A DNA stretch of 59,716 bases. It comes from a virus. Position numbers and translations under genes: made by a program. The notes beneath the pieces were generated by a model that saw nothing but the letters and a program-made list of their open reading frames with translations, searched no databases and was not told where the DNA came from. Shown here in pieces: positions 27,758 to 43,082 of this stretch (its first letter is position 1; the number at the start of each line of letters is the position of its first letter). The stretch spans positions 1-59,716 of the IMG/VR virus record IMGVR_UViG_3300047443_000094. One strand, written 5' to 3'.

Positions 27758-27898
27758 CCGGAACCTTCGAAACCGTAATTCAGGTATGCGAGATTTATGT
27801 TTCCCATAGGGCGTTTTCCAGTCCTGACACGTGCCAATCGCCGCTTCCAAAAAGTCTTCCTACCGCATATAAACAGGTGTCATTTACCGCGCATGAGT

Positions 27899-27921
27899 GC
27901 GGCTTCTACGATGGAGCCCGC
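27899..27921 (+). promoter_or_regulatory. Imperfect hairpin over the giant gene's ribosome site
   Basis: gcggcttc and ggagcccgc can pair with one bulged base and one G-U pair, loop tacgat. The right arm contains the ggag in front of the ATG at 27924. Weaker than the other leader hairpins. Confidence 0.3.
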
Positions 27922-27923
27922 GC

Positions 27924-30900
27924 ATGCCTCTGGTGATTGGCCTCGGCCGAGATGATAGCTGGAAAGACCCCCTCAATCTCTACGGCGGCAAAGCCCCCGA
28001 AGCTCCAAAGACCAGTGAGGCGAGCGCATCCACGCGCCCGTCGTTCAGCGATGCGGACAGAAGCGATCTCGTCAACACGGTGATTGCTGAAGCTGCGGGC
28101 GAGGGTGACGCCGGCATGGCCGACGTTGCGTCCGTTATTCGCAACCGCTCTTCTGAGAGAGGCATCAGCCCCGGCGACGTTGTGCGCCAGAAAAGACAGT
28201 TCACCGGTTATGAGGCCCCGGGCGAGGCTGCCAAGCGCGCCCAGCAGGATCCAGTCCTGCGCCAGCGCGCCGAGGCCATCATCGATGGTGTCTTCTCCGG
28301 CGCACTCCCTGATGAGACTGGAGGTGCCGATCACTATCACGCCGATTCTGTCATGCCAGATTGGGCGAGCTCGATGCAGGAGACGACAAAACGCGGTCGC
28401 CACGTCTTCTACAAGTCCGGTCAGCCCGGGCAGAGCAAGCCTTCCGCCAAGACAGCCTTTGCACCCGGCCTCGATGGCAGCGTCGTCGATCCGTTCGAGG
28501 CAATCCTGAACCCGAAGAAGGCGGAACAGCCGAAGGACGGTAGCGCCGACAGCTCCATGCTGCTGAGCAAGCTTCAGCCAGGCAAGCCCGCCGAGTACGT
28601 CAGCAACATGAAGCCGGGCCTTCAGTCTGGCCTCACTGCGATGTTCAACGATGCACCGGATTTCGTGAAATCCGGCCTCGACATCCTTTCTGGTGCGCGC
28701 TCTCCGGAGCGGCAGGCGCAGATCATCGCGGAGAACGCCGGTAAGTACGGGATCGACCGCAAGGCGTGGCTGGCTGACGTCGACGCCATGGGCCCAGTTG
28801 AGGCCGGTCAGAAGTGGAAGCCGATTTTCAAGCAGACCGGCATGTCGGCGAACATCGGCGCCCCAGGTGGATCGCGGCATCAACACGGCGATGCTGCCGA
28901 TCTCGGCTGGAACGGAGGCGAATTTTCATCGGCGCCGAAGGAAGTCGTCGATTGGGTGCACGCGAATGCCGGGAAGTATGGCATGCGCTTCCCGCTCAAG
29001 AACGAGAACTGGCATATCGAGACGGCGGACGCTCGTGACGGTCATGACGCTGAGGCGCCCAGCTCACCAAAGTCAGAAGCGCCAACGATTGTTGCCAATG
29101 CTCACTTCGCGGTCAAAGATCCGATGGGGCTTTATCCCGAGGGCAACCCAATCCAGCAGACGGTGGATACGCAGGTGGCGGCTGCCGATCAGCGGCAGGC
29201 GGACGCCAGCGCCCAGGCTGAACAGAACCGGATGGGTGCCTTCACCGAGCAGCACAACGTCGGAGTGACCGATCGGCAGCAGCAGCTCGAGGCGGAGAAC
29301 CCGGGCCGCTACGTCGCGATCGACGAGAGCGAGCTTCCGAACTGGCAGAAACAGTGGGAAGCCGATAACCGCTCCGGCGGCATTGGCGGCGACACAGCCC
29401 GCATCCTGAAATCCGGTACGATCGGAGTTGGGCAGTCGCTATCCTCGTTGGCCGACACGCTATTTCGGAAGCTGCCAGGCGGCGACGACTTCCTGAAGGC
29501 GTCCGACGACATCGACCGTTGGGTGATGGGCAAGACCATCGACCAAAAGATGGCCGATTCCCAGCAGCGGGCGAATGCCAGCGTGACAGAGCGCCAGCAG
29601 GACGCCGACGCCAAGAACTGGTGGGACGATAAGAAGCATACCTTCGGCCCAGCGTGGCGCGATCCTCGCAGCTATCTCCGCACCGTCGGTGAAAGCGCTC
29701 CCGGTACCGTCGTCACGATGTTGCCAGGCGGCGTGTTGGCGCGTGGGGCATATCTGCGTGCTCTTGCGGCTGGCGCTACGGAACGCGCGGCAGCCGCGAC
29801 TGCTGCCAGAACGGCCACACTCGCAGGTGCCATTACCGAAGGCACCATGGGCGGAGCCGATTCCGCTCGCAACGTTCGTGACAAGATCGGGAAACTGCCG
29901 CGCGAGCAGCTGGCGAAGACTGAAGCCGTTCGGGCGATGGTACAGGGTGGCATGTCGGAAGACGAGGCCATCAAGGCTCTTTCCGAGGACGCTGCCTCCC
30001 AGGCGTTCCTCACAGCAGGTGTTGCCACCGGCATGTTTGGCGGTATGGGCGATCGGGCGCTCGCCAAGATTATTGCCGAAGGTGTCGGTGGCGGCATCGT
30101 CAAGCGCATCGTCGCCGGAGCCACCCGTGGTTTCGTGGGCGAAGGCTTGCTCGAAGAAGCGCCGCAGGGCGCGGCACAGACGATTGCGGAAAACGCGGCC
30201 GTTCAGAAGGCTGATCCAAACCAGTCTCTGACGGAAGGCGTGGGGGAGGCGGTTGCATCCGGTGTCGCGGCTGGCGGTGCCATGGGTGCAGGCATGGGCG
30301 GCGCAGGCGGCGCGTTCCGCCCAGCCTCCCCCGAACATTCCGCGGCGGCGCCTGCCGTAGCAGCACCGGCACCCGAGGCCGCGCCTCAGCCCAAGGGCCC
30401 GATCGGGCGCTCGGTGCAGCACGCCGAGGAGCAGATCGCAGGCCGACAGCAGCAGCGACTGGCCGACGATACCATGCCGGATTGGCTGCTGGACCTCGGG
30501 CGGAGCGGAAAGACCGCCAACGATCACATCGACGGGTTGCTGAAAACGGCATCTGCTGACATCGAGCGGGAGCAGGCCAACCGTCCCTCAGTCGGCGCGA
30601 CGGTCCGCGTTGATCATGAGGGCATCGACCCGTTCATGGCGCGCGTAGACAGCTACGAGGGCGATGAGGCCGTCGTCATCGATGGCGGCAGCGGCGAAGT
30701 GTATCAGGTTCCGATCGCGAGCATCAGCCAGATTGCCAAATCGCCGGAACAGCTCAATCGGGAAAACCCGATCGAGAAAGGACCGGTTCCGATCAATGAT
30801 AGCATTCCCGAATTTTCGAAAGACCCAGCGCTTGAACCGCAGGCACCGGTTGCCAGCGAGATCAAGAGCGAGCCGCTTCCCGCTCAGAAGGATATGCAGG

Positions 30901-33900
30901 CGGCGACGGAACGTCTTCGCGGGCGCCCGTCGCCTGGTCAGCGCGTCATCGTCGATGATGCGCGGGTAGGGCGCTTCGCTGCAAAGGTCGAGAGCTATGA
31001 GGAAGGCGACACCGAAACCGTTGTCACGACCGACGACGGCGAGGTGCTGCAGGTTCCTGTTGACCGCCTCTATGTCGATAAGCTTACCCCAAAGCAGATC
31101 GAGAAGCAGGATCTTGAACGAAATCCACCGATCGAACGCGAGATTGGTGACGCCGGTCCAAACAGCCGAAAGGTTATCGGAAAGACAGTCGTACTTCCCG
31201 ACGAGAACCACGCCGCGTTGTTCGACCTCGCGAAATCTCGCTTTATTGCGAAGAAGTTGGGCAGGGAAGCTCACACAGACCTTGAACGGGTAAGTGCCGC
31301 CGAGGTGAAGCGTCTTGCCGATGCCTTCAATGTCTCGCCGACTGCCATCACCTCGATGGCCGATGATTACCGCTATCGTGTCGACCGCGCGGCGAAGGAA
31401 GCCCGATCCACGTTGCCGGTGCATATGCATCCGGTCAACGACACGCGGCTGCGCCAGTGGCAGCGTGATCGCAAGAACGAGGAGAGCGCCGCCAGCGCTG
31501 CGCCGGAAACCACAGAGCAGGGCGATAGCTTTGCCGACTGGTGGGACCTGACGCTCGATGATCTCGGGCGCAAGCGTGTCCTCGCAGAGACCGGCATCAA
31601 GCGTAGCGAGAAATCGAAGTGGGCTGGTTTCACGCCCGCGATCAGGAAGAAGCTCGAGGCGGTTCGGACGCCGGAGACGCCTAAGACGACGCCCGCCGAT
31701 GTCACCGCGGTTCCGGATATGCCGGCTGGTGTCGTGTCCCGCTTCACCACGGCCAAGGGCAGTGTGTACGAGGTCCACCAGGACGGAACCACGGTTCGCA
31801 CCAAGGCGGCGAGGAACGATCCGGGGCACGAGGGTGATAGCGGCCTGAAGCCGCGCACCGCGAAGACGGTTTACGTCGATGCGAACGCGTCCGTTCTCAG
31901 CACAGCAGGCATGAGCGGTATCGGCTCGAAAGGCTCGCGCGTCATCATCAAGGATGGCAAGGCGTCGCTGCTGACATGGAACGAAGCACAGAACCGCTGG
32001 GGCGTGATGCCGGACGGACGCGACGTTCCAGTGCACGATCAGCCAGCCGTTGGCCGCTTCCCGCTGGAGCTTTGGCAACCGGCCTCCGATGTCAACGGCT
32101 ACGAAGCCTACAGCCGCATGCACGCTGGCAACGCCATCACCGAAATGTCTGCGTCCGCTGTCCAAGGACAGAGGACAGACGGCGCGGACGATTCATCTGC
32201 GCATGAGGCGGCAACCTCTCCCAAGAACGATTTGCCCGAGCCGACGCAGGCTCAGAAGGAAGCCGGAAACTACAAGGTTGGCAGGCTCAAGCTCGGCGGC
32301 CTCGATATCTCAGTAGAGAACCCCGAAGGCTCTGAACGCAAGGGCACCGACGCCAGCGGCAAGCCATGGTCCGTCAAGATGAAGAGCCACTATGGCTACA
32401 TCCGCGGGACCATTGGCCGCGACAAGGATCATATCGATACCTTCGTTCGCCCTGGTGTGAGCGAGCTCGACGACAGCGCGCCGGTGTTTGTTGTTGACCA
32501 GAAGAGCGAGAACGGCCGTTTCGACGAGCACAAGGTGATGCTCGGTTTCGATACCGAGGAGGCGGCGCGCAAGGCCTACCTCGAAAACTACACCGCCGGC
32601 TGGAAAGGCCTTGGCGACATCTCCGCAACCACGATGGATGATTTCAAGCAGTGGCTGAAGTCGGGCAAGACTGATCAGCCGTTCGCGCCGAAGTGGTTCG
32701 GCTCGCGCGAGAAGGCGGACGCCTATATTGCCAAGCAGTCGCTCGGGAGCTCGCACGAAGTCGTCGAGAACGGGAAGCGGTTCGAGGTCAGGGAGAAACC
32801 CGCGGCTCCGACACGGGAAGAACAGGCCCCGCAGCAGGAACGCGCACAATCCGGGCCGCCGCAGATCGTATCCGCCGACGCACCCGAGATCGACCTTTGG
32901 CGCGGCGCGAGCAAAGCCGAAATCGCGGCGATCAAGGCCGGCGAATACGAATTCCGCCCGACCCACAAGGGCATCATGTTCACGACCGATCGTAGGACGG
33001 CGGAATCATATGGTGGAACGACTGGCAACGAAACGTTGGCGATCAAGATCCCGACGTCTGCGAAGATCCTTGACCGCAAGTCACTGAGCGACCGACCACC
33101 GGCGTTCGACGAAGTGCTAAATGCGTCTGGCAAACGGCCGGGGTTCGATATGGATCAGCGCCAGGCCTTTTTCCGGGAAGAGGCTCGCGAGCGCGGCTAT
33201 GACGTCCTGACCTATGCTAGCGGAACCGGTACATATCAGGTCTACGAGATCCTGAACCCCGACATCATCCAGATTGTCGATCAGGCCACGCCGGCCGCAC
33301 AGCCGAAGTCAAAGCCGGCCGTGTCCGTCAACAAGATTTTCACGCTCGATGCGGCTGAAAAGGCCCGCGCGCTTCTTCGCAAGAAGCTTAACCAGATCAA
33401 CTCTGGTATCGATCCTGAGCTTATGCAGGCTGGCATTACGCTCGCCGGTTACCACATCGAGAGGGGCGCCCGCACTTTCGCGGCTTATGCCAATGCCATG
33501 CTCGTCGATCTAGGCGAGGCAGCGCGCCCGTATCTGAAATCGTGGTATATGGGTGTAAAGTACGATCCGCGCGCGTCAGCCTTCGCCGACATGTCGAGCG
33601 CGACCGAGGTGGACGGCATCGATGTCGCCACGATCACGGGAGACGAGAGTGAACCTGCAGAACTGGATCGAGCTGGGTCGCCAGCACTGGAAGGAACACC
33701 TGCCGACGAAGTACCGGGAGCTGAAAGCAGCCGGGAAACTCGACCAGGCGCTGACGGACGCGGCCGAGCAGACGTATCGCGAGACAAGCCAGCTCGAGGA
33801 GAGCGGGTACAGTCCGGACGAGGCGTGGCAGATGAGCAGGGAGAACTATCTCTTGCTGCCGGAAGAGACCGCGACACCCGCTCCGAAAAGCGAACTGACG

Positions 33901-36900
33901 CATCAGATGGCGAAAGCCGCAGCAAGCGGCCAGCGGTCGATGAAAATCTAGAGCAGGGTCCGTTCGGCCCGATTCTTCGCGGCTACGAAGGCAAGTGGCG
34001 GGAAGCAGCGCTAGAGCTCGAGCGCCGCCAGACCGGCGACGCGATCGGCGCTCTCTCGCATCCAGACGTAGGGCCCATCGATCTCGTTTGGGGGAATGCC
34101 GGCACGAACGCGAGCAACGGAGCTGGCCTCGCCAAGCTGATTGCATGGCACCCGGAAGTGCTCGGCAATCTCCAAGGTTTCATCGATCGTCTTCACGTTG
34201 ACAAGGATCGCAGCACCACTCGTCGCATCCAGCTCAGTGACGAGAGCGGCAATGCCGGTGTGCGTCTCGACTATGACGGCACCGCGAAAACATGGCTGCT
34301 GACTGCTTTTGAAAATGGTTCGCGGCGCTCTGAGAAAAGTTCACGCCGTCTCAGCGCTTTGTGGGGTGACCGGCCTGCGTCGGCCCCGCCGCGAACAGAT
34401 GAGAATATATCGGATCAGTTGCGCGATGTCCAATCCGCCGCGGTGCCGGCACAGCAGCGCGCAGTTGACTACACGTTGTCTGCCGACGACAACCTCGGCG
34501 AGGGCGGTCAGAAGGCCAAGTTTGCTGGCAACGTCGCTGCGATCAGGCTACTGCGCACCCTCGACGAAGAGAAGCGCCCGGCAACCCGTGACGAACAGGC
34601 AGTGCTTGCAAAGTGGGTAGGCTGGGGCGGATTACGCCAGGCATTCGCCCGCGAAGATGGTTCTGTTGCCAAGGGATGGGAGAAGCAGGCGGCCGAATTG
34701 AAGGGCCTGCTTTCACCGGAGGAATACAGCGCCGCCGAATCCTCGACGCGCAACGCGCACTACACCGCGGCCGAAGTCGTGTCTGCGATTTGGGACATTG
34801 CACGGAAGCTTGGTTTCAAGGGCGGGCAGGTGCTCGAACCGTCGGTGGGCGCTGGCAACTTCCTCGGCCTGATGCCGGGGGATGTCCGGAACGCGGCAAA
34901 GGTGACTGGCGTCGAGCTCGATCGCGTTACCGGCGGTATCGCGAAGAACCTCTATCCCAGCGCCAACATCCAGACCCCGATGGGCTTCGAAAAGCTCTCG
35001 GTGCCTGATAGCTATTTCGATCTAGCGATCGGCAACCCGCCTTTCGGCAGCGAAAAGGTATACGACAAGGACCGTCGTCACCTAAACAAGCTGTCTATTC
35101 ATAATTTCTTCTTCGCAAAGAGTGTCGACGCTCTGCGCCCGGGTGGCGTGTTGGCGATGGTTGTCACCAACCGCTTCCTCGATGGTCAGTCAGCCGCGGC
35201 GCGAAACCTCATCGCGAAACAGGCCGATCTCGTCGCGGCAATTCGCCTGCCGAATAACGCGTTCCTCAAGAATGCAGGTACCGAGGTAACCACGGATATC
35301 GTCATTCTCCGCAAACGCCTTGCCGGCGAGGCACCATCGTCGAGCCAATGGCTTGGTGTGTCCGACTATCGCGGGCGTGACGGTAACGTGGTCCCGCTCA
35401 ATGACTACTTCGTTGCGCATCCCGAGATGATGCTCGGCGAGTTCGGCGCGTTCGGCTCGATGTATGGGCCAGATGAGCCAGCGCTGATCGCGCGTGGGGG
35501 CCAGGACACGCCGGCCGAGCTCGCGAAGGCTATCCGCAGCCTTCCCGAAAACATCATGGTGGAGCCCGGTCACGTTGCCACAGAGACCGTGTCAGTGCCG
35601 GAGACGGTCAACGACGTGCAGGTTGGCTCGATGTTTGCGGCTCCGGATGGAACCATCCACCAGCGCCTTTCCGATTCAATCGGGCAAGCGCAGTCTGCTG
35701 CCGTTGCTTTCCCGAATGAGACGGCAAAGGAACGTGTGTCGGGCATGGTGCGCGTGCGTGACGCCTTCGCCCGGCTGCGTCGTGCGCAGATTGACGAGAA
35801 GGCTACCGACCAGCAGATCGAGAACCTCCGCAACCGGCTCAACACTCTCTACGACGGGTTCGTCAAGAAACACGGCCCGATCAATGCGGACGCCAACAAG
35901 CGGCTGTTTCGCGATGATCCCACTTGGCCCCAAATTTCGGCACTGGAGCAGGGTTTCGATAAGGGTATCAGCGCTACCGTTGCGAAGGCGACCGGCGAGA
36001 AGGCAACGCCAGCATCGGCGCAAAAAGCAGCGATCTTCTCGAAGCGAACCCAGCAGCCGTACCGCCGCCCGACGTCGGCCAGCAGTGCCAAGGACGCTCT
36101 CGCGACCATCCTTAATGATCTTGGCCGGGTTGATCTGGACGCAATGTCTCGGCTCTACGGCAAGCCCTCGGACGCGATTGTCAGCGAGCTTGGCCCACTT
36201 CTCTATAAAACCCCGTCGGGCGCATATGAGACGGCGGACGCCTATCTCTCCGGTAATGTGAAGCAAAAGCTCGCCGAGGCGGAGCGCGCCGCCGAGCAGG
36301 ATTCGGACTTCCGCCGGAACATCAACGCTCTGCGTGACGTGCAGCCGGCCGATATCGAGGCGATCGACATCGATGTTAAGCCCGGTTCACCCTGGGTGCC
36401 GGCGAAGCACATCGAGGACTTCATCAAGCATGTTGCTCAGTCCTCAGTGAAGCCGAAGGCCTACTATTCCGCAGCGAATGCCAAGTGGGTGCTCGACGTT
36501 CCGTCGCCCGCTTCGGCGGCTCAGACACAATGGGGCACCGATCGCGCCAGCGTTGACACCGTCCTCAGTGCGGTGATGAACGGTCAGTCCATCACGATCT
36601 CAGACCGGATGAACGACGGCACGACGGTCCTCAATCAGCCGGCAACCGAAGCAGCGAACGAGAAGGCGGAGCGCGTAAAGGCGGAATGGCGCCGTTGGTT
36701 GTGGGATAATGACGCCCGCCGCGATGAGCTGGCGCGGCTCTACAACGACACCTTCAACACCGACGTCATGCGAAGCTTTGACGGCGGGCACCTCACGCTG
36801 CCGGGCAAGGTTGGTGACGACATCATTTCCTTCCGGCCGCATCAGAAGAACTTCGTATGGCGGTCGCTGCAATCCGGAACGGCATTGGCCGACCATACCG

Positions 36901-39900
36901 TGGGCGCGGGTAAAACCTTCGCCGCAATCGCGTCGGCGATGGAAAAGCGCCGCATCGGCCAGGCACGCAAGCCCATGTTTGTCGTACCGAACCATCTCGT
37001 TGGGCAGTGGGCGGCGGATTTCGTTCGCCTCTATCCGGGCGCGAAAGTTTTGGCCGCCACGAAAAAGGATTTCGAGAAGGATAACCGCAAGCGGCTATTT
37101 GCCCGCGTCGCCACCGGTGACTGGGACGCCGTCATTGTCGCCCACTCCTCTTTCGGCAAGATCGGGATCGACCCGAACTACGAAAGCCGATTCATCCAGC
37201 AACAGATGGATGATCTCGAACAGTCCATCGGGGAGCTGCGGCGTAACACCGGCGAGAAGTCGCGGAACGTCGCCCAGCTCACCAAATGGCGCGACAACCT
37301 CAAGGCCAAGATGGAACGGCTGCTGGATGCCGGCAAGAAGGACGATGGCCTCACGTTCGACGAGCTCGGCGTTGACGCCCTCTATGTCGACGAGGCGCAT
37401 GAGTTCAAAAACCTCGCTTTCGCCACATCCATGAACCGCGTTGCCGGTCTCGGCAATCAGGCGGGCAGCCAGAAGGCGTCCGACCTTTATATGAAGAGCC
37501 GGTTCATCCTCGAAAAGACCGGCGGCAATAACGTGGCGTTTCTCACCGGAACGCCGCTCAGCAACACCATGGCCGAGATGTTCACCGTTCAGCGGTACCT
37601 CGACGAGAAGGCGCTGCGCAATCTCGGTGTCGCGCATTTCGATGCCTGGGCAAGAGTGTTCGGCGAGGTAGTCAGCGATTGGGAGCTCTCGCCGAGCGGT
37701 CAGTACAAGCTCAACAGCCGGTTCGCCAAGTTCGTGAACATGCCCGAGCTGATGCAGCGCTATCTCAGCTTCGCCGACGTCATCACCAACGACGACATCA
37801 AGGCGCAGCTGGCTGCGATCGGCAAGAAGCTGCCGCTGCCGAAGGTGAAGGGCGGCAAGCCGACGAACATCACCGTCGAACGCTCGCCAGATCAGGCAGC
37901 CTTCATTGGCGAGGGCAAGGCAGACGAAAACGGTAACCTCGAGTTCCCGAAGGGCTCCCTCGTGCACCGCGCCGAAAATCTGCCGAAGAAGGCGGAGAAG
38001 GGCGCCGATAACATGCTGAAGGTTATGTCGGATGCCCGCAAGGCGGCGCTCGACATGCGCCTGATCGATCCCGCTTATTCGGATCATCCGGGCTCGAAGG
38101 TCCATGTCTCCGCCGACAACATCAAGCGCATCTACGATCGCTGGAGCGGGGACCGCGGCACGCAGCTGGTGTTCATCGACCTCTCGACGCCGAAGAAGGC
38201 TCGCGCCCGTGAAGAGGCGGAGCTCCGTGCCCTGATCCAGAAGGCAGACGAGGGCGACGAGGCGGCGCAGGAAAAGCTCGACAACATGTCGCCCGATGAC
38301 TTCCTCGCGCTGCAGAGCACGTTCTCGGTCTACGATGATCTTCGCGAGAAGCTGATTTCCCGCGGCATCCCTGCCGATGAGATCGCCTTCATCCACGACG
38401 CCAACACCGAGGCGCAGAAGGAAGAACTGTTCGGAAAGGTCCGATCAGGCCGCGTCCGAGTCCTTCTCGGTTCAACGCCGAAGATGGGCGCCGGCACCAA
38501 CGTTCAGAACCGTCTCGTTGCGCTCCATCACCTCGATGCGCCGTGGCGTCCGTCCGACCTCGAACAGCGCGACGGCCGTGGTATCCGCCAGGGCAATGAG
38601 CTCTATGGACAGGATCCGGACAACTTCGAAATCGAAATCCTTCGCTACGCGACGAAGAACACCCTCGATGCGCGCCAGTGGCAGGGCATCGAGGCGAAGG
38701 CTCGGTTTATCCAGCAGGTCCGCAAGGGCAATCTGAAAACCCGCGAGATCGAGGACATCGCCGGCGAGGCAGCGAACGCGGCCGAGATGAAGGCTGCGGC
38801 CTCCGGCAATCCTCTCATTCTCGAAGAGATGGAAACCCGCCGTAAGCTCCGCCAGCTTGAAGGCCAATCGGTCGAGCACGATCGCGAACAGCACCGTATC
38901 AAGGGCAAGATCAGGTCGCTCAAGCAGGAGGCCGACGAGATCGAAGCGCGCTCGATCTCCGTGCAGAAGGATGCGGAGCGGGCGGAGGCGATTGCCGACA
39001 AGCCATTTGAGGCGACGATCGGCGGTCAGAGCTTCGATAAGCCGAAGGAATTCGGTGCCGCAATAGCCGCGGCCATGCGCAAGGAGCTGATCGACCACGC
39101 CGGCGACACGGAACTCGGTAAGTATGGCGATTTCACGCTGTCGATCGAGCACCAGTATGATCGGGCGTTCGAAGTCACGGTATCTGGCGATCGTGACTAT
39201 CAGGTGCACGTCCAGGATGCTGCCGACGTTGACGCGACCGGTCTCGGCATGCGCGTGATCAACACCGTCAAGAAGCTCTCGACGGTGCCCCAGTTGGACC
39301 GCGATCGCGCGACAGAGGCGAGGGGGCAGATCCCGGCGCTTGAAAAGCAACTCGGCCCGTGGAAGCACGCCGAAGAGCTCACAGACACATCTGCGCGCCA
39401 TCGCCGTATTCTCGATGCACTGAAGCCAAAGCAGAAGGGTGCTGCAAACGCTGCCGTGGCAAAGCGCCCCGATCCAGTTGTTCGTGGCGACGGCCGGTTC
39501 AAGGAGGCGCAGGCTCCGGAGCGTGGCGAGGGCGAGAGCTACGCCGATTGGGCCCGCCGCATTGTCATGGAGAATGGCCGATCGAGCGGTCACGAGTATC
39601 TCGTTGCGATTGACGATGACGGTTCGACGATTGAGTTCGGTACGGCCGGCGATCCACGCTACACCGGCATGAGCAACAAGCTCGCCTCGGCAATGGCGAA
39701 CCCGGATCGCAGCCTGGTGCTCTATCATAATCATCCGGCCGACACGCCGCTTAGCGCCCAGGACATCGCCGCGACCGTTTACCCCGGCGTGCACCAGATC
39801 TACGCGCTCGGGCATAATGGCTACGATACCGTTGGTGGCATGACATCCGCGGCAAGGGACTATCTTTCTGCCAGCCCGAATATCACGCGGGACAGCCTCA

Positions 39901-42900
39901 CCTTCTCGAACAATCTTGCGACGATTTCCTATGAGGTCGAGCCCTATCTCGCCAACCTCGTGAAGGAGCGCCGTATCACCGAAGCACAGGCCAAAGAGGC
40001 ATTCCATCACTTTGCAGCGATTGTGGCTAACCGAGCCGGCATCATCGACTTTTCAACGAGCAGGCCTTATAACCCGTCAATTGTTCCGGGGCTTGATCGG
40101 AAAATTGACGAAGCCGCTCTGAAACTCGCGAGGGCATTCTTCAAAAATGGAAAACCAGATCCAAGCAGTCCAGGGACTAATCGATCCTCCAACGCCGTTC
40201 GACACGTTGCAGGCATGGAAGGATTGGGCTCAGTCGATCAGCAAGTGGCCGGCCCACGATCCGCAGCGACAGGTCTTTCTGAAGCAAGCACGCCAGATGA
40301 TTCAGGAAAAGTCGAAGGGCGAAAGCGCGTAACCGAAACGCGCGTCGTCAAGGAGCTCAATGGTAAGCTCATCGACATCCAGCCGACACTCCTGAAGACG
40401 GTCCCGCTGAACTATTTCACGGAACTCGCCCGGCCGAACATGACCGCTGTCGGAGACTACCTCCGCGTCAAGCGCCTCATGGACGCCTACCGTGGCACGA
40501 AGCATGCCGCCGCCGACGAGATCGCCGGGGAGTGGCTGAAATATGCCCGCCTCGGTTTCCTCGGCAAGGACAAGAGCCGGGCCCAGGAATTGGCGAACCT
40601 GATGCACAACAGCACGCTTGCTGGCGTCGATCCGAGCAAGACTGACGAGGAGACCACGAAAAAGCCCGGATATGAGCTGCTACGGAAGCAGTATATGGCG
40701 ATGCCGGAGAAGGGCAGGCAGCTCTATCGGAGTGTCCGCGACGCCTACAAGAAACAGGCGCTCGAGCTCGACGATATCCTTCTCGATAATGTGAGGAAGG
40801 CCCAGCAGATCGCCCACGATCGCGCCGAGGCTCGCTATCGCAAGACCATGGAGAAAATCAGGGACAGTGGACTGACGGGCATCGATCGGCGCAATGCCGA
40901 AGAAGATGCAGCAAGTGCACACAAGGCGGAGACGACGAAGGCCACGTGGGCGGCGAAGGCCCGGCTGACGAAGATGCGCATCGCGTTCGAGGCAAGCCGC
41001 GTCGAAGAGCCCTATTTCCCGCTTGGCCGCTTCGGACGGTATTTCGTCACCCAGCGCGATATTGACGGCAGGGTTTTGAGTTTCTCGAAGTTCGAGACGG
41101 CCGCGGCCCGTGACCGTTTTGCGGCGGAGCTGAGCCGTGGTGCTGGCGGCGCCAAGGTCGAGGTGGGTGTGATGGAGGCGGGGAGCGATCTTCGCAAAGC
41201 CATGGATCCGCGCATTGTTGCCGAGATCGAAGAAATTCTCGGTGGCGCAGGCGTCGGCAACGACATCATGGATCAGATCTGGCAGCGCTATCTGGAAAGC
41301 ATGCCGGACCTTTCGGCTCGCAAGCGTTTCATCCATCGCCAGGGCACCGCAGGCTTCACCGGCGACGCGTTGCGGGTGTTCTCGTCGCACATGTTCCACA
41401 GCGCCCACCAGATCGCGCGGCTGAAGTACGGGCTTGAGTTGCAGGAGCTCACCGGTCAGGCCATGGATCAGGCAAAGGAGAGCGACGATCAGACCCGTGG
41501 CGTTACGCTCGCCAACGAGCTGTCGAAGCGCCATGAGTGGGTGATGAACCCGACCGGCAGCAAGGTCGCGCAGACCATGACGAGCACTGCCTTTGTGTGG
41601 TTCCTCGCAGCCTCACCGGCCGCTGCCGCCGTCAACATGACGCAGACTGTTATGCTCGGCCTGCCGATCCTGTCGGCGAAGTTCGGCAGCTTCGCCAAGG
41701 CAGGCGCGGCGCTCGCGCAGGCGTCCATGGATACGGTCAGAGGCCGCGGCTCGATCGTCAACGGCAACCTCTCGAAGGACGAAAAGGCAGCGATCAAGGC
41801 CTTCTATGAATCGGGCCTGATCGACCGGACGCAGAGCCACGATCTTGCAGGCGTCGGCGAGACCGGTGTGGAGTACACGCCGCTGCGGGCCCGGGTGATG
41901 GGTGTTATCTCCTGGGCGTTCCACCGTGCCGAGGTCTGGAACCGAGAAGTGACGGCGCTGGCGGCCTATCGCATGGCGCGTGACGCAGGCGAAACGATGT
42001 CGGCGGCGATCGACACCGCGCACGATCTGACGTGGAAGACGCACTTTGACTATGCGAACTCCTCCCGGCCTGCCGTGTTGCAGAACGACCTTGCCAAGGT
42101 CGCTCTCGTCTTCCGCCAGCACAACATCAACATGCTCTATCGGCTGTTCCGGGATGTTCAGCAATCCATGAAGGGTGAAACCGCCCAGGCGCGCAAGGAG
42201 GCGCGCTATCAACTCGCCGGCGTCGTCGGCATGATGTCGCTGATGGCGGGCGTCTCGGGCACCGTTGGCTTCCATCTGCTGATGGGGCTCGCCGGTATGG
42301 TGTTCGGCGACGATGACGATCCAATGGATTTCGAAACGCAGTTTAAGGCCAACGTCATTGATATCCTCGGGCCCGAGCTCGGTGGCGTAGTGTTGAATGG
42401 TGTGCCAGGTCACTACCTCGGCATTGATCTTTCGAGCCGGATCGGCATGCCGGACTTGTGGTTCCGTTCTCCGTCTCGCGACCTGCAGGGCAAGGACGAG
42501 TACCAATACTGGCTCACGCAGACGCTCGGCGCGACTGCGGGGCTCGGGGAGACGCTCTACACCGGTGGCAGCCTGATCTATGACGGCGATGTTGCCCGTG
42601 GCATTGAGATGATGGCGCCCAAGGCGATTCGCGACCTGATGAAATCCTACCGCTACGCCAGCGAAGGGCTGGCGACCATCGGCGGGGATCAGGTGCTGCC
42701 GGCCGATGAGATGGGCTATCATGACATCGTTGCGCAAGCGCTCGGCTTCAACCCGGCAAGGGTCGCGGAGACGTGGGACCGTAACACGGCATTGAAGAAC
42801 GCGGAGCGGCGCGTGCTCGACGAGCGTCAGCGCCTGGTCAACAAGTTCGCGATGGCAGCCATGTCACAGGATGATGGTGCGATCGATGATGCCGTGAAGG

Positions 42901-43082
42901 CGATCGAGAAGTTCAACGCGGCGCCGGTACATGGTGGGGTGGCAATCACGAAGGACACCCTGCAACGATCGCTGAAAACCCGGGCCAGCAATTCGGCAAA
43001 ACGGGAGGATGGCGTCCTGATCCGCAACAAGATCCTCAGCCTTCGCCTGCGAGAGAGCTTGGCTGACCCCGTGTATCGGTGA
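27924..43082 (+). CDS. Giant polyvalent virion protein (DarB-like, PLxRFG)
   Basis: One unbroken frame of 5052 codons. Domains in order by residue: SleB-like wall hydrolase (about 45-170); M15-type peptidase with SRHQHGDAADLGW and NWHIE (215-370); Ala/Gly-rich hydrophobic region (590-800); two small repeated beta units (893-935, 1006-1045); inorganic-pyrophosphatase-like domain (1433-1590); ADP-ribosyltransferase-like domain (1658-1786); barnase/EndoU-like RNase-like domain (2011-2136); N6-adenine methylase with LEPSVGAGNF and IGNPPFG (2230-2480); SNF2 helicase with VGAGKT 2993, DEAH 3156 and QRDGRGIRQGN near 3550; JAB protease with HNHP at 3935; PLGRFG at 4366; hydrophobic C-terminus. Such proteins are thought to be injected with DNA and protect it. 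Two linkers (1909-2010, 4075-4136) are out-of-frame readings of small genes, pointing to gene fusion. Confidence 0.92.
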   Translation: MPLVIGLGRDDSWKDPLNLYGGKAPEAPKTSEASASTRPSFSDADRSDLVNTVIAEAAGEGDAGMADVASVIRNRSSERGISPGDVVRQKRQFTGYEAPGEAAKRAQQDPVLRQRAEAIIDGVFSGALPDETGGADHYHADSVMPDWASSMQETTKRGRHVFYKSGQPGQSKPSAKTAFAPGLDGSVVDPFEAILNPKKAEQPKDGSADSSMLLSKLQPGKPAEYVSNMKPGLQSGLTAMFNDAPDFVKSGLDILSGARSPERQAQIIAENAGKYGIDRKAWLADVDAMGPVEAGQKWKPIFKQTGMSANIGAPGGSRHQHGDAADLGWNGGEFSSAPKEVVDWVHANAGKYGMRFPLKNENWHIETADARDGHDAEAPSSPKSEAPTIVANAHFAVKDPMGLYPEGNPIQQTVDTQVAAADQRQADASAQAEQNRMGAFTEQHNVGVTDRQQQLEAENPGRYVAIDESELPNWQKQWEADNRSGGIGGDTARILKSGTIGVGQSLSSLADTLFRKLPGGDDFLKASDDIDRWVMGKTIDQKMADSQQRANASVTERQQDADAKNWWDDKKHTFGPAWRDPRSYLRTVGESAPGTVVTMLPGGVLARGAYLRALAAGATERAAAATAARTATLAGAITEGTMGGADSARNVRDKIGKLPREQLAKTEAVRAMVQGGMSEDEAIKALSEDAASQAFLTAGVATGMFGGMGDRALAKIIAEGVGGGIVKRIVAGATRGFVGEGLLEEAPQGAAQTIAENAAVQKADPNQSLTEGVGEAVASGVAAGGAMGAGMGGAGGAFRPASPEHSAAAPAVAAPAPEAAPQPKGPIGRSVQHAEEQIAGRQQQRLADDTMPDWLLDLGRSGKTANDHIDGLLKTASADIEREQANRPSVGATVRVDHEGIDPFMARVDSYEGDEAVVIDGGSGEVYQVPIASISQIAKSPEQLNRENPIEKGPVPINDSIPEFSKDPALEPQAPVASEIKSEPLPAQKDMQAATERLRGRPSPGQRVIVDDARVGRFAAKVESYEEGDTETVVTTDDGEVLQVPVDRLYVDKLTPKQIEKQDLERNPPIEREIGDAGPNSRKVIGKTVVLPDENHAALFDLAKSRFIAKKLGREAHTDLERVSAAEVKRLADAFNVSPTAITSMADDYRYRVDRAAKEARSTLPVHMHPVNDTRLRQWQRDRKNEESAASAAPETTEQGDSFADWWDLTLDDLGRKRVLAETGIKRSEKSKWAGFTPAIRKKLEAVRTPETPKTTPADVTAVPDMPAGVVSRFTTAKGSVYEVHQDGTTVRTKAARNDPGHEGDSGLKPRTAKTVYVDANASVLSTAGMSGIGSKGSRVIIKDGKASLLTWNEAQNRWGVMPDGRDVPVHDQPAVGRFPLELWQPASDVNGYEAYSRMHAGNAITEMSASAVQGQRTDGADDSSAHEAATSPKNDLPEPTQAQKEAGNYKVGRLKLGGLDISVENPEGSERKGTDASGKPWSVKMKSHYGYIRGTIGRDKDHIDTFVRPGVSELDDSAPVFVVDQKSENGRFDEHKVMLGFDTEEAARKAYLENYTAGWKGLGDISATTMDDFKQWLKSGKTDQPFAPKWFGSREKADAYIAKQSLGSSHEVVENGKRFEVREKPAAPTREEQAPQQERAQSGPPQIVSADAPEIDLWRGASKAEIAAIKAGEYEFRPTHKGIMFTTDRRTAESYGGTTGNETLAIKIPTSAKILDRKSLSDRPPAFDEVLNASGKRPGFDMDQRQAFFREEARERGYDVLTYASGTGTYQVYEILNPDIIQIVDQATPAAQPKSKPAVSVNKIFTLDAAEKARALLRKKLNQINSGIDPELMQAGITLAGYHIERGARTFAAYANAMLVDLGEAARPYLKSWYMGVKYDPRASAFADMSSATEVDGIDVATITGDESEPAELDRAGSPALEGTPADEVPGAESSRETRPGADGRGRADVSRDKPARGERVQSGRGVADEQGELSLAAGRDRDTRSEKRTDASDGESRSKRPAVDENLEQGPFGPILRGYEGKWREAALELERRQTGDAIGALSHPDVGPIDLVWGNAGTNASNGAGLAKLIAWHPEVLGNLQGFIDRLHVDKDRSTTRRIQLSDESGNAGVRLDYDGTAKTWLLTAFENGSRRSEKSSRRLSALWGDRPASAPPRTDENISDQLRDVQSAAVPAQQRAVDYTLSADDNLGEGGQKAKFAGNVAAIRLLRTLDEEKRPATRDEQAVLAKWVGWGGLRQAFAREDGSVAKGWEKQAAELKGLLSPEEYSAAESSTRNAHYTAAEVVSAIWDIARKLGFKGGQVLEPSVGAGNFLGLMPGDVRNAAKVTGVELDRVTGGIAKNLYPSANIQTPMGFEKLSVPDSYFDLAIGNPPFGSEKVYDKDRRHLNKLSIHNFFFAKSVDALRPGGVLAMVVTNRFLDGQSAAARNLIAKQADLVAAIRLPNNAFLKNAGTEVTTDIVILRKRLAGEAPSSSQWLGVSDYRGRDGNVVPLNDYFVAHPEMMLGEFGAFGSMYGPDEPALIARGGQDTPAELAKAIRSLPENIMVEPGHVATETVSVPETVNDVQVGSMFAAPDGTIHQRLSDSIGQAQSAAVAFPNETAKERVSGMVRVRDAFARLRRAQIDEKATDQQIENLRNRLNTLYDGFVKKHGPINADANKRLFRDDPTWPQISALEQGFDKGISATVAKATGEKATPASAQKAAIFSKRTQQPYRRPTSASSAKDALATILNDLGRVDLDAMSRLYGKPSDAIVSELGPLLYKTPSGAYETADAYLSGNVKQKLAEAERAAEQDSDFRRNINALRDVQPADIEAIDIDVKPGSPWVPAKHIEDFIKHVAQSSVKPKAYYSAANAKWVLDVPSPASAAQTQWGTDRASVDTVLSAVMNGQSITISDRMNDGTTVLNQPATEAANEKAERVKAEWRRWLWDNDARRDELARLYNDTFNTDVMRSFDGGHLTLPGKVGDDIISFRPHQKNFVWRSLQSGTALADHTVGAGKTFAAIASAMEKRRIGQARKPMFVVPNHLVGQWAADFVRLYPGAKVLAATKKDFEKDNRKRLFARVATGDWDAVIVAHSSFGKIGIDPNYESRFIQQQMDDLEQSIGELRRNTGEKSRNVAQLTKWRDNLKAKMERLLDAGKKDDGLTFDELGVDALYVDEAHEFKNLAFATSMNRVAGLGNQAGSQKASDLYMKSRFILEKTGGNNVAFLTGTPLSNTMAEMFTVQRYLDEKALRNLGVAHFDAWARVFGEVVSDWELSPSGQYKLNSRFAKFVNMPELMQRYLSFADVITNDDIKAQLAAIGKKLPLPKVKGGKPTNITVERSPDQAAFIGEGKADENGNLEFPKGSLVHRAENLPKKAEKGADNMLKVMSDARKAALDMRLIDPAYSDHPGSKVHVSADNIKRIYDRWSGDRGTQLVFIDLSTPKKARAREEAELRALIQKADEGDEAAQEKLDNMSPDDFLALQSTFSVYDDLREKLISRGIPADEIAFIHDANTEAQKEELFGKVRSGRVRVLLGSTPKMGAGTNVQNRLVALHHLDAPWRPSDLEQRDGRGIRQGNELYGQDPDNFEIEILRYATKNTLDARQWQGIEAKARFIQQVRKGNLKTREIEDIAGEAANAAEMKAAASGNPLILEEMETRRKLRQLEGQSVEHDREQHRIKGKIRSLKQEADEIEARSISVQKDAERAEAIADKPFEATIGGQSFDKPKEFGAAIAAAMRKELIDHAGDTELGKYGDFTLSIEHQYDRAFEVTVSGDRDYQVHVQDAADVDATGLGMRVINTVKKLSTVPQLDRDRATEARGQIPALEKQLGPWKHAEELTDTSARHRRILDALKPKQKGAANAAVAKRPDPVVRGDGRFKEAQAPERGEGESYADWARRIVMENGRSSGHEYLVAIDDDGSTIEFGTAGDPRYTGMSNKLASAMANPDRSLVLYHNHPADTPLSAQDIAATVYPGVHQIYALGHNGYDTVGGMTSAARDYLSASPNITRDSLTFSNNLATISYEVEPYLANLVKERRITEAQAKEAFHHFAAIVANRAGIIDFSTSRPYNPSIVPGLDRKIDEAALKLARAFFKNGKPDPSSPGTNRSSNAVRHVAGMEGLGSVDQQVAGPRSAATGLSEASTPDDSGKVEGRKRVTETRVVKELNGKLIDIQPTLLKTVPLNYFTELARPNMTAVGDYLRVKRLMDAYRGTKHAAADEIAGEWLKYARLGFLGKDKSRAQELANLMHNSTLAGVDPSKTDEETTKKPGYELLRKQYMAMPEKGRQLYRSVRDAYKKQALELDDILLDNVRKAQQIAHDRAEARYRKTMEKIRDSGLTGIDRRNAEEDAASAHKAETTKATWAAKARLTKMRIAFEASRVEEPYFPLGRFGRYFVTQRDIDGRVLSFSKFETAAARDRFAAELSRGAGGAKVEVGVMEAGSDLRKAMDPRIVAEIEEILGGAGVGNDIMDQIWQRYLESMPDLSARKRFIHRQGTAGFTGDALRVFSSHMFHSAHQIARLKYGLELQELTGQAMDQAKESDDQTRGVTLANELSKRHEWVMNPTGSKVAQTMTSTAFVWFLAASPAAAAVNMTQTVMLGLPILSAKFGSFAKAGAALAQASMDTVRGRGSIVNGNLSKDEKAAIKAFYESGLIDRTQSHDLAGVGETGVEYTPLRARVMGVISWAFHRAEVWNREVTALAAYRMARDAGETMSAAIDTAHDLTWKTHFDYANSSRPAVLQNDLAKVALVFRQHNINMLYRLFRDVQQSMKGETAQARKEARYQLAGVVGMMSLMAGVSGTVGFHLLMGLAGMVFGDDDDPMDFETQFKANVIDILGPELGGVVLNGVPGHYLGIDLSSRIGMPDLWFRSPSRDLQGKDEYQYWLTQTLGATAGLGETLYTGGSLIYDGDVARGIEMMAPKAIRDLMKSYRYASEGLATIGGDQVLPADEMGYHDIVAQALGFNPARVAETWDRNTALKNAERRVLDERQRLVNKFAMAAMSQDDGAIDDAVKAIEKFNAAPVHGGVAITKDTLQRSLKTRASNSAKREDGVLIRNKILSLRLRESLADPVYR
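33649..33951 (+). CDS. Overprinted 100-aa phage protein inside the giant gene
   Basis: A GTG start preceded by gggaga opens a 100-aa protein in the +1 frame relative to the giant gene. It begins NLQNWIELGRQHWKEHLPTK and continues QALTDAAEQTYRETSQLEES and DEAWQMSRENYLLLPEE. I recognise this as a small conserved phage protein that is elsewhere a separate gene. Third codon positions in this frame are mostly G or C, as in real genes here. The giant frame in the same stretch has A-rich third positions and low-complexity sequence. So this is the ancestral coding frame and the giant protein's linker is the by-product. Confidence 0.75.
   Translation: MNLQNWIELGRQHWKEHLPTKYRELKAAGKLDQALTDAAEQTYRETSQLEESGYSPDEAWQMSRENYLLLPEETATPAPKSELTHQMAKAAASGQRSMKI
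40147..40332 (+). CDS. Overprinted 61-aa protein inside the giant gene
   Basis: ATG-start frame, +1 relative to the giant gene: MENQIQAVQGLIDPPTPFDT, LQAWKDWAQSISKWPAHDPQ, RQVFLKQARQMIQEKSK. It is a well-formed helical protein sequence with G/C-favouring third positions. The giant frame here reads a Ser/Gly/Pro-rich linker. It lies between the JAB domain and the PLxRFG part. No family recognised and the ribosome site (gaggg) is weak. Confidence 0.6.
   Translation: MENQIQAVQGLIDPPTPFDTLQAWKDWAQSISKWPAHDPQRQVFLKQARQMIQEKSKGESA

Follow-up and report, generated by a model that had tools for sequence, protein, structure and literature searches.

The window analysed, a 59.7-kb phage record taken as a whole, carries a giant ORF ('the giant') inside which a second ORF ('the small gene') is encoded out of frame (Table 1). 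The giant matches PHROG 10089 (DarB-like antirestriction), its parts being a cell-wall hydrolase, a VanY-like part, an InPase-like part, a methyltransferase, a helicase and LPD39, with N6-methyltransferase and helicase domains both present. It belongs to the family of DarB-like antirestriction/polyvalent phage proteins (P1 DarB; Bcep22- and PBC5-like phages); this identity is a family match, and virion packaging and restriction protection are inferred only from the family. The small gene (GTG start, 100 aa, TAG stop) is positioned at a domain junction, immediately 5′ of the methyltransferase part, and the stretch of giant frame that overlaps it is without a recognisable domain. PMC6630229 describes a DarB-like protein from this group of phages, and the nested gene is unmentioned in the relevant sections of that paper and of a paper on polyvalent proteins (PMC5512222).

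Table 1. Features of the giant ORF and of the genes nested in it (window coordinates).
Feature	Position	Strand	Description and basis
Giant polyvalent ORF, DarB-like ('the giant')	27897..43082	+	5061 codons; domain and PHROG matches
Shine-Dalgarno-like GGAG	33639..33642	+	6 nt 5′ of the GTG start; sequence plus Shine-Dalgarno conservation in homologues
Overprinted linker of the giant, sharing its bases with the small gene	33648..33950	+	Low complexity, A-rich third positions, kept open
Nested small gene ('the small gene')	33649..33951	+	100 aa, likely TnpV-like four-helix protein (fold predicted); +1 frame relative to the giant
Methyltransferase part of the giant	34467..35336	+	Directly 3′ of the nested gene; query for fetching relatives
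Second nested gene	40147..40332	+	Encodes 61 aa in the +1 frame; located in a linker farther 3′ in the giant; codon-usage scan

As chance ORFs of at least 100 codons are numerous in the window, ORF length alone was not taken as evidence. Over the small gene, the small frame has a GC3 of 0.81 and the giant frame one of 0.43, the latter being about 0.70-0.75 nearby; third positions of the giant frame are here 40% A and its residues mainly R, A, E, G, S and D. When codon usage was scanned in all five other frames along the whole giant, the small-gene spot ranked first. When codons are compared with the usage of the giant gene itself, the small frame outscores the giant frame at 96 of 100 loci, and it is still the better fit when only synonymous usage is considered (88 of 100 loci).

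The N-termini of homologues map to 33649 (M/V-N-L-x-x-W), and the upstream ATG at 33622 shows no conservation as a start among them. The chosen start is ATG or GTG in 79 of the 84 distinct nested copies, and at least four Shine-Dalgarno motif bases at 3-12 nt were found for 77 of the 84, versus 22% of same-frame control codons. The start was imprecisely mapped in several copies scored as lacking this motif, those of L119, L121 and L122 being taken from the first open codon; in L071 and L075, so scored too, GGAG is present just beyond the permitted spacing. Furthermore, the small frame is blocked within five codons 5′ of the start in 24 of the 100 nested copies, and therefore requires a start of its own. 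Conservation of the ATG/GTG together with the Shine-Dalgarno motif shows that the small gene has an independent start signal; initiation itself is inferred.

By tblastn, the small protein was found in 21 phage records, with hosts that include Rhizobiales, Klebsiella, Erwinia, Pseudomonas, Vibrio and Microcystis. In 10 of the 11 records examined, the small gene lies out of frame within one continuous giant ORF, in an identical relative frame and without annotation of its own; a conserved gene was missed in these records because the larger ORF covers it. In the eleventh, phage PBC5, the upstream frame is broken, yet downstream of the break the giant frame still runs through the small gene without a stop. 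Many more loci came from scanning IMG/VR and bacterial genomes (some repeating the same phages); of the 91 loci retrieved with the small protein as query, about 85 have its gene at the same position and in the same frame relative to the giant. Relatives with the nested gene span many bacterial phyla, and over the homologue loci the small and giant frames are open and the third frame has stops. Comparison of homologues revealed invariant residues in the small protein that include W6, H13, W14, P19 and L31. A tblastn search of plasmids using the window protein gave no matches, the plasmid relatives being reached via the Fibrobacter and Monoglobus copies, and a scan of viral contigs using the Monoglobus TnpV gave no relatives. 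Free-standing copies without a giant were found at L091, L094, L098, L101 and L102. Two side observations concern the form of individual copies: in Pseudidiomarina (L101 9974-10762) the free-standing small protein is fused to an apparently membrane-spanning C-terminal part, and in one viral contig (L044 9988-10713) an intact small gene overlaps a giant frame that survives only in decayed form.

The converse test started from 80 giants that had been retrieved through the methyltransferase domain, independently of the small gene. A clear small gene was found upstream of the methyltransferase in 74 of them; in the remaining 6 the corresponding slot is occupied by a +1-frame ORF, which has weak profile similarity in 4; in the most distant giants, the slot ORFs are weakly similar or dissimilar to the small gene. 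At the slot, BcepIL02 and phages 8P and USP_25 show a +1 codon-usage switch that is far beyond the range seen elsewhere in the gene, and the signal is weak in phage Y7 and a Bacteroides phage.

Selection on the two frames was measured in 158 pairs of 70-95% identity. Divergence at small-gene codon positions 1, 2 and 3 is 0.16, 0.13 and 0.28, respectively. The third positions of the giant frame, which coincide with small-gene position 2, are the slowest sites in the overlap and the fastest-changing in the flanks (0.13 versus 0.42-0.44). Correspondingly, pN/pS is 0.33 in the small frame, and the apparent pN/pS of the giant frame is 1.57 in the overlap versus 0.17-0.25 in the flanks. The pS of the small frame (0.41) is below that of the flanks (0.54-0.57), which is what additional constraint on the giant frame would produce. 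Across the 84 distinct copies, no giant-frame stops were found versus 1.34 expected per copy under small-frame synonymous shuffling, and the small frame is open versus 1.69 stops expected under giant-frame synonymous shuffling. These shuffle results are not independent probabilities, because the loci are related and most were picked for an open giant frame. A cleaner argument for constraint on the giant frame comes from copies that no helicase follows (L091, L094, L098, L101 and L120), where the equivalent frame does have stops. Conservation of both frames as coding over the overlap, the criterion for a nested gene, is shown; detection of the product is lacking.

A preliminary description, made from the sequence alone, had claimed that 33649-33951 is a separate gene in the +1 frame, with G/C-rich third positions set in an A-rich, low-complexity linker of the giant. 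Both claims held, the former on homologues, the conserved start and Shine-Dalgarno motif, the substitution pattern and codon usage (translation remaining inferred), the latter on the GC3 values. Of the checks it proposed, the codon-position and synonymous-rate analysis of related loci supports dual coding, and the search for the 100-aa protein in phages returned the records above. It would have been refuted by relatives that keep the giant frame without the small one; the opposite was seen in the converse test.

In the AlphaFold2 model of the small protein, residues 1-67 have a pLDDT of about 90; four helices are predicted, followed by a disordered tail. A match to TnpV (PF14198) was found in 10 of 15 members and is weak: that of the window protein covers residues 3-52 and scores 18.3 bits, under the gathering cut-off of 27, and the Fibrobacter copy (P0002) is over it at 35.5 bits. 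Similarity to nested TnpV and actinobacterial copies is weak and repeated (hmmsearch E 3.5e-10 to 0.002, small sets), with an hhalign probability of 83% for the actinobacterial copies and only 9% for the Firmicutes copies. The small protein is thus likely a helical bundle of a TnpV-like superfamily, distantly related, as far as weak profile matches and a model-predicted fold allow. No usable family was found for it in NCBIfam or PADLOC, and sequence matches to solved structures were to designed helical proteins only.

TnpV is a small protein encoded by mobile elements of Gram-positive bacteria, those of the Tn4451 type among them; a Xis-like excision role has been postulated for it (PMC3158075), and nothing in the present data bears on that role. 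Like the small gene, it sits beside DarB/SNF2-like helicases in the same nesting frame: in L117, L118, L119, L121 and L122 (Clostridial or streptococcal plasmids, or phage contigs of faecal origin), TnpV genes are nested beside the same helicase within open frames of 1600-3085 codons. Away from the helicase, TnpV is free-standing, unlike the window gene; L120, which has no helicase match, is not nested and has stops in the corresponding frame. The same nesting is seen in three actinobacterial plasmids, though their records annotate otherwise. As to annotation, the giant ORF is cut short in some plasmid records because the small gene was called: two of them (L114 5992-6429 and L117 7944-8276) annotate the small gene and start the helicase downstream, with the frame open far upstream.

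The top fold match of the small protein is 2apl, which we take to be PG0816 of Porphyromonas gingivalis, a DUF1896 (PF08989) protein, at Z 7.9 (the next being 4.3) and with a Foldseek probability of 0.92 but an E of 1.2; for helical bundles, Z below about 13 may be chance. In all 13 Bacteroidota loci fetched, DUF1896 (about 145 aa, longer than the 100-aa window protein) is a separate, un-nested gene, the 3′ end of which meets the start of the methyltransferase-helicase ORF; over the DUF1896 gene, the helicase frame is interrupted by stops. The position directly 5′ of a DarB-like methyltransferase-helicase is common to DUF1896 and the window gene. Profile comparison by hhalign found no sequence homology between the two, so that the link rests on fold and position only.

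One functional label was rejected for the small protein. The last 100 positions of PHROG 938, labelled 'endolysin', are the small gene, and the label misleads because the record of PBC5 joins an upstream part and the small ORF in one frame; in that phage (L008 5716-12309) the upstream part continues in frame into the small ORF.

The codon-usage scan also revealed a second nested gene, absent from the preliminary description, which lies in the same frame as the first and encodes a protein with the motif DTLQxW...LKQAR. Giants of rhizobial phages conserve it (24 distinct sequences) and keep their own frame open through it, and the nested gene diverges by 0.17, 0.17 and 0.29 at codon positions 1, 2 and 3; no significant match was found for its protein among PHROGs. 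A different nested +1-frame gene was observed at another joint of the PEp14, Pavtok and Stean giants (L013 9682-9990; also L016, L017 and L077), with 69-70% identity among them. Moreover, +1 codon-usage switches occur at L071 6878-7195, L079 7793-8371, L081 7076-7561 and L100 6860-7147 and 16997-17392; with no relatives in the set these remain unconfirmed, and it is only possible that they are further nested genes. Hits at the starts of giant ORFs (L071 5192 and L100 5075) were set aside as likely ends of the preceding gene.

We propose that the 100-codon ORF is a genuine gene with its own ribosome-binding site inside the giant mRNA, its conservation being shown and its translation inferred. 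Comparison suggests that it was formerly a separate gene just 5′ of a DarB-like methyltransferase-helicase gene, the frame of which would later have been extended through it, so that the stretch came also to code for a low-complexity linker. That the small frame is the older of the two, as initially claimed, is supported by the free-standing copies, by codon usage and by the un-nested Bacteroidota counterpart before a separate helicase. That pair of DUF1896 and helicase suggests a pre-fusion state, a possibility that has only fold and position behind it. The accompanying claim that two genes fused across the small one is refined and stays unproved. In the shortest nested forms, the Fibrobacter loci L103 and L111, the giant starts only a few dozen codons 5′ of the small gene; as these are almost without the upstream part, the helicase N-terminus probably extended over the small gene first, and the upstream domains would have joined afterwards.

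As the small gene accompanies the enzyme across phages, conjugative elements and plasmids, its product may be a dedicated partner of the methyltransferase-helicase core, acting in assembly, activity control or packaging, and nesting would tie gene and enzyme to one transcript. Such a partner role is the likeliest function, but it is inferred without functional data and could as well prove wrong as right. The explanation as a whole (a genuine and older TnpV-like gene, across which the giant was extended, and a likely partner) we regard as likely, with no expression data at hand.

Other readings of the locus can be put forward. The giant frame might be the older, with the small gene arising de novo by overprinting in the linker and the free-standing copies escaping later; nested copies do greatly exceed free-standing ones in the phage sets. 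Yet it is the small protein that has a conserved predicted fold and the giant linker that is of low complexity, codon usage favours the small frame, and the linker is absent from P1 DarB; TnpV also exists free-standing (L120), and DUF1896 precedes an unextended helicase in Bacteroidota. We hold this reading unlikely. Less likely still is ribosomal frameshifting from the giant frame, by which an N-terminal part would be fused to the small domain. The upstream part of PBC5 is in frame with the small ORF and PHROG 938 is modelled likewise, but this fused reading occurs in one phage only and may reflect a sequencing error or a real indel, while the Shine-Dalgarno motif and start are conserved at the exact N-terminus and the small frame is closed just upstream in nearly a quarter of the copies.

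The small gene alone could be real, the giant frame being open by chance and its flanking parts being separate proteins. The overlap is without a domain, and some helicases are annotated from downstream of the small gene; against this stand the absence of stops in all 84 distinct copies, the stops in helicase-less ones and the depressed pS of the small frame, which make this reading very unlikely as well. Finally, a chance artefact of GC-rich sequence has in its favour that ORFs of similar length are plentiful in the window, but is all but excluded, since the conserved protein, start and Shine-Dalgarno motif and the substitution pattern hold across numerous phages and phyla.

If the preferred reading, an older gene over which the giant was extended, is right, the overprinted gene would be a fossil marker at a joint, its position recording how the giant was assembled, and the contrast between nested and un-nested forms offers a testable route for the assembly of multidomain giant proteins. 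It would also suggest that a widespread antirestriction enzyme has a partner that is still unstudied, that role being inferred. A bolder reading is that giant polyvalent proteins grew by read-through of intervening small genes, nearly always in the same frame, with linkers that hide conserved unannotated genes; among these, the TnpV-like gene would have the widest distribution and would obligately partner DarB-like methyltransferase-helicases, and 40147-40332 and the PEp14-like gene would be further cases. Taken as one joint claim, we lean towards it by a narrow margin.

No description of TnpV, DUF1896, DarB or polyvalent-protein nesting was found in the accessible literature searched, and a prior description is not excluded. 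Nested phage genes as such are known; undescribed within that literature are the host protein, the position, the breadth across phyla and the un-nested counterpart. P1 DarB is without the nested small gene and also without the upstream extension and linker, starting ~90 residues ahead of its methyltransferase match. Rz/Rz1 are known nested phage genes, in which a small gene lies out of frame within a larger one. Here, in contrast, the nested gene is hosted by a giant protein of many domains, overlaps it at a junction between domains and is apparently older than the linker that covers it.
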